Source: Candidatus Poribacteria bacterium
Lineage (GTDB): Bacteria > Poribacteria > WGA-4E > WGA-3G
Length of the DNA stretch: 64,000 nt
Direction of reading: 5' to 3'
Assembly: GCA_026706025.1 (NCBI GenBank)
Contig: JAPOZO010000063.1
Span: forward strand, 1 to 64,000
Shown here: positions 17,847-20,381 of the stretch, piece after piece
Layout of the letters: each line of letters opens with the position of its first letter
Numbering within the stretch: the first letter of the stretch is position 1
The notes under the pieces: generated by a model
What the model saw: the letters and a program-made list of their open reading frames with translations, nothing else
The model's database searches: none
Told to the model about the DNA's origin: nothing
Position numbers and translations under genes: made by a program

Positions 17847-18944
17847 TCAATCTCGCCTATAAGTGGTCTGCTTCAGGTGAGCCCATGTTGTTACTGTCCT
17901 TCCGTGCGGTTGTACAGAAACAGGTGGGATAACCGGAAGTTCGGCACGGTAAATGCCGTTATCTCGCGTCCCCACGTATAGTCCGTCTCCGTACGAAAGG
18001 AGAGCGTCAATAGATAATCCCTGAAGTCCCATGGCAGACCACGTCTCTGAGTGAGCATCAAAGGCATAAACACCATGAGTGGCCAATCCGGCAAATAAGT
18101 ACCCACCGCGGACAGCGAAACTATAGACGTACGGTCGGTCATTTGAATCCTCAGTGTTATCAATTGGCAATCCGTCCATCGGATATTCCCATGTTTGCAG
18201 TGTTTCGCTCCAACGTCCGACGCCTTTTTGGCCTGCGACATACAGTTGCCCTTGAAGCACTGCCCAATCATTAGTGCGGTCACATTGGGAGAATGGAAGA
18301 TTTTGCCATGTCAGTCCATCGTCGGGCGATCGCGCCATCGAATTGGTTGAGATGGCAGTCCATAGATAACCGTCGAACGCTGTTATTGCGTAGATGCTAT
18401 TGCCCGCATACCACTCCTCTGAAACGTCGTGCCATGTCTCTCCACGATCTGTTGAGATGTAGGTGCCCCCGTGGTACATCACATTGATGATCGTATTGTC
18501 GATGATAAGGATGTGTCGGACTGTGCCGTAAAAGTGTTCTCCATCTACATCTTGGAAGCGTAGACCCTCATTTAAGGGTTTCCATGTTTCTCCGGCATCA
18601 TCTGATCGGAATATTCCGTGTCGCCACGTTCCGACATAAACGGTATTTCGATCGGTTGTAAGTGTGGTAATGACCTCATCTTCATTTCCGAATGTAGTAA
18701 TGACCTCATCTTCATTCCCGAATGTAGTAGGCGACCATGTATTCCCGCCGTTTTCGGAAAAAAGTAAGCCCGCTGATGTACCAGCGTAGAGTCGATGATC
18801 TGCCCCTTCGAGTACCGATACATAGTGCATGGGTGTCCCGTTATCAAGTCGGATCCACTCCAATTCTAAATCGAGTTCCTGTGCCCACGCCGTTCCCACC
18901 ACGATAACCAAGAAAACTATTCGTGTACAAAGCCGAGTCCACAT
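17847..18944 (-). CDS. Exported BNR/sialidase-like beta-propeller protein (365 aa)
   Basis: Start at 18944 (MWTRLCTRIVF), preceded by AAAGGAG; a longer upstream in-frame ATG lacks an SD. Signal peptide to about residue 20 (TAWAQ). The rest carries repeated Asp-box-like motifs (SENGGNTW, SDDAGETW, STDRGETW, SPDDGLTW), typical of BNR/VPS10-type six- or seven-bladed propellers that bind or cleave glycans. No sialidase Arg triad was identified, so a binding role is as likely as a catalytic one. A perfect-frame 30-bp tandem duplication (18669-18728) repeats TTFGNEDEVI. First gene of the putative operon with the WD40 and barrel genes. Confidence 0.78.
   Translation of the reverse strand: MWTRLCTRIVFLVIVVGTAWAQELDLELEWIRLDNGTPMHYVSVLEGADHRLYAGTSAGLLFSENGGNTWSPTTFGNEDEVITTFGNEDEVITTLTTDRNTVYVGTWRHGIFRSDDAGETWKPLNEGLRFQDVDGEHFYGTVRHILIIDNTIINVMYHGGTYISTDRGETWHDVSEEWYAGNSIYAITAFDGYLWTAISTNSMARSPDDGLTWQNLPFSQCDRTNDWAVLQGQLYVAGQKGVGRWSETLQTWEYPMDGLPIDNTEDSNDRPYVYSFAVRGGYLFAGLATHGVYAFDAHSETWSAMGLQGLSIDALLSYGDGLYVGTRDNGIYRAELPVIPPVSVQPHGRTVTTWAHLKQTTYRRD
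18669..18728 (-). repeat. 30-bp tandem duplication (29 of 30 identical)
   Basis: Two adjacent 30-bp units (18669-18698, 18699-18728) differ at one base and encode TTFGNEDEVI twice, inserting ten residues in one propeller blade. Near-identity suggests a recent slippage event. Confidence 0.85.
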
Positions 18945-18983
18945 TGTTTTACTCCTTTTGTCTGTGAGAATCATAAAATCCCG

Positions 18984-19367
18984 CTATTTGAGGGCAACGG
19001 TGTAAAACTGAATTGTCTCAATGCGACTATTAGCTGTTCTTGAGAGCTTTATGATTTTAACGGCATCTGTCTCCGCAGTGAGTGGAGTTTCAAATGGAAG
19101 CCGCCCACCGGGTACTTTCTTAGCGAGTTCCCATTGTCTGCTCTCATCGCGAACATGAATTTCAATGTTTTGCAATTGTCCAGAACCGAGCAGCGCAATT
19201 TTCCGAATATCCGCACTTTCTGGAAGCCAATAAATTTCCCCGTGGAAAGTTACCTTCCCGTTCACTGGACGATTGATCAAGATGTACTCCTGATCTGTCA
19301 AAAGTGTGGCACAACCGATATATGATAAACAAGCGAGTATGAAGAGTAGACCTTTCCATCTTTTCAT
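18984..19367 (-). CDS. Small lipoprotein, paralogue 1 (127 aa)
   Basis: Start at 19367 (MKRWKGLLF) with AAGGAG in front; earlier in-frame codons belong to the leader. Signal with lipobox IGCA (Cys about 17), so a membrane-anchored periplasmic or outer-membrane lipoprotein. The mature part has an IEIHVRD...W core and a strand pattern reminiscent of a small beta-sandwich. It is about 60 percent similar to the product of 19712-20104. The two genes and their leaders form a tandem duplication. Both have interlocking inverted repeats just ahead of the start. Function unknown. Confidence 0.75.
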   Translation of the reverse strand: MKRWKGLLFILACLSYIGCATLLTDQEYILINRPVNGKVTFHGEIYWLPESADIRKIALLGSGQLQNIEIHVRDESRQWELAKKVPGGRLPFETPLTAETDAVKIIKLSRTANSRIETIQFYTVALK

Positions 19368-19406
19368 GATTTTTCTCCTTGCATATAGTATTTCGGGTTG
19401 ATAGGT

Positions 19407-19479
19407 GGAGCGATACGGCAAGTGAGATAGGAGAGCCGATCACATCGCTCCGTGTTTCTCCAAGGAGAAAGGCTTTCCC
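19407..19479 (-). promoter_or_regulatory. Structured leader with interlocking stems, copy 1
   Basis: On the transcript the order is stem A (GGGAAAGCC, 19479-19471), a hairpin TTTCTCC/GGAGAAA (19470-19455), stem B (GGAGCGATGTG, 19451-19441), A' (GGCTCTCCT, 19437-19429) and B' (CGTATCGCTCC, 19417-19407). A pairs A' with one mismatch and B pairs B' over 11 positions with two G.U pairs. The A-B-A'-B' order allows an H-type pseudoknot or mutually exclusive folds. It ends 39 nt before the ATG of the lipoprotein. No known riboswitch class was recognised. Confidence 0.5.
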
Positions 19480-19572
19480 ATGGTTTACTCAGCGTTGTTT
19501 AATATGTCAGCAATTTTCATGCCAATGCCAAATATGTTAAATATGCCCATTATCTTGGTATTACAACTGTTA

Positions 19573-19605
19573 ATGCACGTCGCATTTGGGTGAGTACGCC
19601 GCAAA
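19573..19605 (-). repeat. Dispersed repeat, copy 1
   Basis: On the minus strand this stretch carries TTTGCGGCGTACTCACCC followed by AAATGCGACGTGCATT. A near-identical plus-strand copy lies at 22532-22566. It is in the gap between the two lipoprotein genes and overlaps no convincing gene. Confidence 0.75.
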
Positions 19606-19711
19606 CTTGCACAAAAAGGGGCGAAACGGTCTAAAAAATGCCCGAAGAAGTGCAGTCTTCGCAGTCCAAATCATTGAAGTCGAACTTCCCGTATGGGGCA
19701 ATGGATTATTT

Positions 19712-20104
19712 CTAATCACCTTTATCAGCAACCGTGTAAAACTGAATCGTCTCAATGTTCCCGGCTCCAGTCATTGAGTATTTTATAATTTTGATAGCGT
19801 CTGTCTCAGCAATAAGTGAGATTTCAAACGGGAATTCGATGCCGCCTGGCACTTTCTTAACCGGCTCCCATTGATTTCTCCTGTCACGCACGCGAATTTC
19901 AATGTTTCGGATTTTTCCAGAACCGAGCAGCACAACTTTCCGAATATCCGCTCTCTCTGGGAGTGAATAAATTTCTCCGTTGAAAGTTGCCTTTTCACTC
20001 ACTGGACGATCGATCAAGACATATTCTTGCTCCGTAAAAAGCGCGGCGCAGCCAATCTGTGATAAACAAGCGAGTATAAAAAGTAAGCCCTTCCACCTTT
20101 TCAT
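19712..20104 (-). CDS. Small lipoprotein, paralogue 2 (130 aa)
   Basis: Start at 20104 (MKRWKGLLFILACL), preceded by AAAGGAG. The N-terminal signal ends in a lipobox IGCA with Cys about 17. The mature domain (LGSGKIRNIEIRVRD...FPFEISLIAETDAIKI) matches paralogue 1 throughout. Its strand-rich pattern suggests a discoidin-like or small beta-sandwich domain, but I do not recognise a named family. Convergent neighbours and a duplicated structured leader make the pair look like a recent local duplication. Confidence 0.75.
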   Translation of the reverse strand: MKRWKGLLFILACLSQIGCAALFTEQEYVLIDRPVSEKATFNGEIYSLPERADIRKVVLLGSGKIRNIEIRVRDRRNQWEPVKKVPGGIEFPFEISLIAETDAIKIIKYSMTGAGNIETIQFYTVADKGD

Positions 20105-20142
20105 GATTCTTTCTCCTTTGCACATAGCACAGACGGATAGAG

Positions 20143-20216
20143 GGAGCGATGCAGTAATTGAGGTAAGGGAAAGCCTTTTGCATCGCTCCGTATTCCCCAA
20201 GGAGGTAGGCTTTCCC
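20143..20216 (-). promoter_or_regulatory. Structured leader with interlocking stems, copy 2
   Basis: Order on the transcript: A GGGAAAGCCT (20216-20207), a CTCC/GGGG hairpin, B GGAGCGATGCA (20189-20179), A' AGGCTTTCCC (20176-20167), B' TGCATCGCTCC (20153-20143). Both stems are perfect (10 and 11 bp). Two nt separate B and A', and 13 nt separate A' and B', which is sterically fit for an H-type pseudoknot. The end of stem B changes from A-U here to G-C in copy 1, a compensatory pair change. It lies 38 nt before the start codon. Confidence 0.55.
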
Positions 20217-20381
20217 AGGTTTACTGAGCGTTTTAATATACTAAGCAACTTTCATGCCAAAGGCAACTCAAGCGCAAAATATCTTTGAAAGCGGGTTTTC
20301 ACTGAATATTAGACAGCCATATTATTTTTAGTGTCCAATTTCTGAACAGTTTTGTTCAAAAATCTGGTGGCACGGAAGTCC

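Follow-up and report, generated by a model that had tools for sequence, protein, structure and literature searches.

Two lipoprotein genes of a Candidatus Poribacteria bacterium are each preceded, on the minus strand, by two long stems in interlocking order (Table 1), and comparison with related genomes makes it very probable that these stems form a real RNA pseudoknot that is under selection. The element is probably a regulatory mRNA leader, structured and duplicated, and the chances are about even that it is an uncatalogued cis-acting leader of the H-type pseudoknot class, which would most likely influence translation, or else mRNA stability, by way of a factor that binds it. If so, surface lipoproteins with a CBM-like fold would be subject to two layers of control, one at the sigma-54 promoter and one in the leader pseudoknot. 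All positions refer to the window, the whole stretch of 64,000 nucleotides that was analysed.

A preliminary description of this DNA, made from the sequence alone, had placed the same two-stem layout ahead of both lipoprotein genes, and this is borne out when the region is read on the minus strand. The described stretch opens at 20216 with the first base of the 10-bp stem of copy 2 (5' arm) and closes at 19407 with the last base of the 11-bp stem of copy 1 (3' arm). In copy 2 the minus-strand order is GGGAAAGCCU - 17 nt - GGAGCGAUGCA - 2 nt - AGGCUUUCCC - 13 nt - UGCAUCGCUCC, that is, B5-A5-B3-A3 with loops of 17, 2 and 13 nt. Stem B pairs GGGAAAGCCU with AGGCUUUCCC over 10 bp and stem A pairs GGAGCGAUGCA with UGCAUCGCUCC over 11 bp, both perfectly, as had been described, and in a search for the best interlocking stem pair the energy of copy 2 was matched in 0 of 300 dinucleotide shuffles. 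The changes in copy 1 had been said to preserve pairing. This is correct for the 11-bp stem A (GGAGCGAUGUG/CGUAUCGCUCC), in which the inner terminal pair is G-C rather than A-U and a G.U and a U.G wobble are found, but not for stem B (GGGAAAGCC/GGCUCUCCU), in which one internal A.C mismatch had been missed. Because of this mismatch, copy 1 alone shows no clear win over its shuffles. The two copies in the window would on their own be weak evidence, and the proof comes from relatives.

Table 1. Leader elements, promoters and genes in the window
Feature	Position	Strand	Basis
Copy 2 sigma-54 (-24/-12) promoter TTGGCATGAAAGTTGCT; predicted transcription start near 20233	20244..20260	-	
Copy 2 stem B 5' arm GGGAAAGCCU, helix S1	20207..20216	-	sequence
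Copy 2 loop 1, 17 nt; conserved CUCCUUGG at 20197-20204, anti-Shine-Dalgarno-like	20190..20206	-	
Copy 2 stem A 5' arm GGAGCGAUGCA, helix S2	20179..20189	-	
Copy 2 stem B 3' arm AGGCUUUCCC	20167..20176	-	
Copy 2 stem A 3' arm UGCAUCGCUCC	20143..20153	-	
Copy 2 Shine-Dalgarno AAGGAG, downstream of and outside the pseudoknot	20113..20118	-	sequence
Lipoprotein gene 2, 130 aa, lipobox IGC, CBM32/F5-8C-like beta-sandwich	19712..20104	-	ORF and model
Copy 1 sigma-54 promoter TTGGCATGAAAATTGCT; predicted transcription start near 19498	19509..19525	-	
Copy 1 stem B 5' arm GGGAAAGCC	19471..19479	-	
Copy 1 loop 1 with 6-bp hairpin UUUCUC-CUUG-GAGAAA	19452..19470	-	
Copy 1 stem A 5' arm GGAGCGAUGUG	19441..19451	-	
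Copy 1 stem B 3' arm GGCUCUCCU, one A.C mismatch with 5' arm	19429..19437	-	
Copy 1 stem A 3' arm CGUAUCGCUCC	19407..19417	-	
Copy 1 Shine-Dalgarno AAGGAG	19375..19380	-	sequence
Lipoprotein gene 1, 127 aa, about 72% identical to gene 2	18984..19367	-	ORF

Both leaders are preceded by the sigma-54 site TTGGCAT-GAAA[A/G]-TTGCT, which fits the pattern of sigma-54-dependent promoters (TGGCAY-N5-TTGCW) in a genome that carries rpoN (E 8e-59). The genome contains 53 sites of the form TTGGCAYN5TTGCW vs one for a reversed control pattern, and the site is aligned in nearly all homologous leaders. The predicted transcription start lies about 17-19 nt before stem B, so that the pseudoknot stands at the 5' end of the mRNA. 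The Shine-Dalgarno sequence follows about 25 nt past its last paired base (20143 in copy 2). The spacing from promoter to leader ranges from about 14 to 43 nt among leaders, and in some the leader is intact despite insertions of roughly 130-190 nt between it and the sigma-54 site. Short insertions, possibly MITE-like, were seen between promoter and leader at L040 (upstream of 8365), L063 (upstream of 10229) and L068 (upstream of 9939). Among the sigma-54 sites of the whole genome (G000), several of those examined precede genes for exported or surface proteins, for example at L107, L115 and L117.

Comparison of 52 leaders places the element in the H-type class, with helices in A-B-A'-B' order and loops long enough to span them. 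Stem B, which serves as helix S1, has 9-10 bp and stem A, helix S2, has 11 bp; loop 2 is 2-3 nt long in every leader, and loops 1 and 3 measure 17-25 (typically about 19) and 9-14 nt, varying by single bases. The constant short loop 2 and the fitting lengths of loops 1 and 3 fit a fold in which the two stems coexist and stack. The additional hairpin that had been described in loop 1 is present in copy 1 (6 bp) and its close relatives and is weak or absent in most others. As a general conserved third stem it was rejected, given a mean of -2.6 kcal/mol vs -1.6 in shuffles and shifts of register.

The stems are 81-87% identical among relatives, compared to 41-60% for four-fold sites of the downstream gene, and stem columns change two to three times less often than loop columns. 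Pairing is found in 93.9% of alignment cells; shifting the 3' arms by 1-3 columns lowers this to 35-53%. Double changes occur in 23 cells vs 7.5 in shuffles. A home-made, phylogeny-aware null was used, in which the substitutions of each column are redistributed over a FastTree tree and a helix score credits double changes that remain compatible and counts broken pairs as a cost; the scores of stem A and of stem B each exceed 300 of 300 null simulations. Double changes that keep the pair are seen at A48-75 (A-U/G-C), A47-76, A38-85, B4-60 and B10-54, and at A43-80, where G-C becomes A-U in leaders of a different gene. Reconstructed single changes preserve the pair in 54 of 94 cases, with 39 expected from the loop spectrum (p = 0.001). 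G.U pairs are created more often than A.C mismatches (40 vs 22 events, p = 0.015; 39 to 23, p = 0.028, in an enlarged set), which points to the coding-sense RNA as the acting strand. Covariation is modest, with a best single pair at E about 0.02 among the 20 stem pairs tested; the structure-directed tests were significant, but no stem pair was when covariation was assessed over all column pairs.

Loss of pairing in homologous leaders had been named as the observation that would count against the structure. Most homologues keep both stems, and some secondary copies lack stem A: it is broken in tandem second copies (for example L047_2, L052_2 and L049_2) and in copies at PD40 genes (L051_2, L059_2 and L061_1). 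The element is dispensable in some places, since several copies have a broken stem A. The leaders of the PD40 gene with an MKRK start (L058, L061, L051 and L059) have a mutated stem A 5' arm in three of four cases and keep stem B and loop 1; a new, hairpin-capable sequence, CUAUCC..GAUAGG, follows.

The downstream lipoprotein has no Pfam family above the cut-off. Its AlphaFold2 model (pLDDT 86.8) has Foldseek matches to CBM32 and F5-8C domains at a TM score of about 0.5-0.58, so the predicted protein resembles carbohydrate-binding module 32 at the level of fold only. Leader copies precede four kinds of gene; the products include the CBM32-like lipoprotein, LamG-like, PD40/WD40 and YCF48-like proteins, as well as another lipoprotein. 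The last, of another family with the motif SGCDSVEDEDN, occupies a separate locus and has its own leader, with altered arms that still pair (L069, L167 and L168). Near the lipoprotein genes, at 18663-18722 within the BNR-repeat gene 17847-18974, a 30-nt tandem duplication (93% identical) repeats the ten residues TTFGNEDEVI.

As proposed in the preliminary description, related genomes were searched with a covariance model. It found the leader in 33 of 38 genomes of one Poribacteria genus, and the 45 genomes from the rest of the class gave no hit. The five genus genomes without the leader are also without the lipoprotein. Six genomes (G017, G019, G021, G024, G028 and G035) keep the leader without a lipoprotein match, in some cases directly ahead of LamG-like, WD40 or YCF48-like genes, which indicates a function that does not depend on one protein. 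The scan with Rfam covariance models, likewise proposed, assigned no family: Rfam 15 gave no match to the whole window at the gathering cut-off, copy 2 had only chance matches at relaxed thresholds (E 1.8 and 4.9), and the leaders of three relatives had none. Poribacteria are sponge-associated bacteria, and our literature search found no report of a regulatory RNA like this leader in the phylum.

In the sister genus, eight of the lipoprotein orthologues that were fetched have a sigma-54 site whose distance to the start codon is 60-86 nt; in copy 2 of the window it is about 156 nt. The shorter spacing leaves too little room for the pseudoknot, and the sister genus has the lipoprotein and the promoter without it. 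On this comparison the pseudoknot is most simply read as a recent addition, in one genus, between an older sigma-54 promoter and the ribosome-binding site. The sister genus thus offers a natural before-and-after comparison, through which the gain of a regulatory RNA becomes testable. A phage origin was rejected, given that the motif is in no viral contig.

In the mechanism that we propose, the pseudoknot would form some 15-20 nt into the sigma-54 transcript, upstream of the ribosome-binding site, and would tune how the operon is translated, or how long its mRNA lasts, by binding a factor, either a protein or a small molecule. The presence of this factor would decide whether loop 1 and the spacer before the Shine-Dalgarno sequence are free. 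Loop 1 carries CUCCUUGG in 41 of the 52 leaders and CUCCU in five more, and CUCCUUGG is complementary to AAGGAG. As long as the pseudoknot is incomplete, loop 1 may pair with AAGGAG and so mask the ribosome-binding site; once the full pseudoknot has formed, loop 1 would be held and the site accessible. We rate the chance that the element acts mainly on translation at slightly under even, and the specific switch between loop 1 and the Shine-Dalgarno sequence is a rather unlikely, tentative suggestion. Leaders that lost CUCC retain an ordinary Shine-Dalgarno sequence. Pairing of the two as the default fold was rejected, with only five of 42 predicted minimum-energy folds using it. A leader peptide was also rejected, given that an ATG upstream of stem B is found in a subset only and that loop lengths shift the frame.

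In the leader of T4 gene 32, a protein-nucleated translational operator, an H-type pseudoknot lies far ahead of the start codon and unstructured RNA leads from it into the ribosome-binding site (PMC3014915); the Poribacteria leader shares this placement. Gene 32 is autoregulated by gp32, whereas the Poribacteria leader persists in genomes without the lipoprotein, so that autoregulation by the lipoprotein is unlikely. The translational operator of E. coli rpsO, for S15, also contains a pseudoknot (PMC3014915), but rpsO is a ribosomal gene and there is no match of sequence or in Rfam. Two suggestions of the preliminary description can be set aside. A ribosomal-type leader does not agree with the downstream genes, which encode lipoproteins and other exported proteins. 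A transcription attenuator does not agree with what follows the 3' arm of stem A, CUCUAUCC.., without a U run; the sequence there is CUCUAUCCGUCUGUGCUAUG in copy 2 and ACCUAUCAACCCG in copy 1, and by eye no intrinsic terminator is seen.

The alternative that survives best, though we consider it improbable, is a 5' stability element, in which the pseudoknot, standing close to the 5' end, protects the mRNA against 5'-end-dependent decay and senses nothing. The ompA leader, with its 5' stabilising stems, which are simple hairpins, is alike in giving a surface-protein mRNA a structured 5' end and unlike in having no conserved pseudoknot. Such a role would agree with a pseudoknot near the predicted 5' end and an unstructured stretch before the Shine-Dalgarno sequence, with spacings to both promoter and Shine-Dalgarno sequence that are free to vary, and with a leader common to different exported-protein genes. 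A plain stabiliser, however, would need neither the conserved loop sequence nor the conserved stem sequence.

The riboswitch of the preliminary description is less probable still. The pseudoknot would bind a metabolite and switch translation of surface-protein operons, and a compact conserved pseudoknot with a conserved loop sequence, upstream of the Shine-Dalgarno sequence and reused before several operons, is of the kind expected. It would work like H-type preQ1 class I riboswitches, for which translational control through access to the Shine-Dalgarno sequence is known (PMC11625349). PreQ1 class I and SAM-II riboswitches share with this leader the interlocking stems, the very short loop 2 and the 5' position, but here the stems are longer, at 9-11 bp, and the targets encode exported proteins rather than metabolic functions. 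The consensus aptamer sequences of preQ1 and SAM-II are not found and no Rfam riboswitch class matches. In preQ1 class I the Shine-Dalgarno sequence is at least partly inside the pseudoknot, whereas here it lies outside. The target genes share no obvious metabolite, and restriction to one genus would be unusual for a metabolite aptamer.

About as doubtful as the riboswitch is a two-state, attenuator-like switch, in which A and B are mutually exclusive hairpins rather than one pseudoknot. Nested minimum-energy folds do form A alone, and the helices are separately conserved, but the constant loop 2 and the lengths of loops 1 and 3 suit coexistence, and neither stem is followed by a terminator or U run. 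Quite improbable is the reading of the repeats as DNA operators, for example sites for a repressor or the sigma-54 activator, with RNA pairing incidental. In its favour, the repeats lie just downstream of the sigma-54 promoter and the sequence of stem A hardly varies; a promoter-proximal operator is nevertheless disfavoured because the leader survives the 130-190 nt insertions, and the variable promoter spacing and loop lengths, the greater tolerance of one strand's wobble pairs over those of the other, and paired changes that obey base-pairing rules also stand against it. The weakest reading, a functionless relic conserved by recent shared ancestry or a mobile palindrome, could draw on the confinement to one genus and the decay of some copies, and it is barely credible beside conservation well above that of four-fold sites, compensatory changes and viral contigs without matches. 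The dispersed transposon palindrome that the preliminary description had raised is cleared as well, in that the inverted repeat GGAGCGAT-N15..45-ATCGCTCC is confined to these leaders in the six genus genomes checked.

It is conceivable, and we offer it as speculation, that these Poribacteria use 5' pseudoknots dedicated to sigma-54 transcripts as a second layer of control, at the level of RNA, with the leader as a new class of regulatory RNA, possibly a riboswitch; the elements at L267-L270 show the same interlocking order.

The element at L267-L270 is a second, unrelated, conserved non-coding element that is also sigma-54-driven and lies outside the window, at C63:127516-127701, C63:132176-132360, C63:375346-375505 and C34:90605-90745 of G000. 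One copy was scanned and had no Rfam match. Its arms are GTGTAAG / CCAAATCCC / CTTACAC / GGGATTTTGG, or as RNA GUGUAAG-CCAAAUCCC..CUUACAC..GGGAUUUUGG, with the interlocking order assigned by eye. Relatives, several of them truncated, are present in 17 of the 38 genus genomes.
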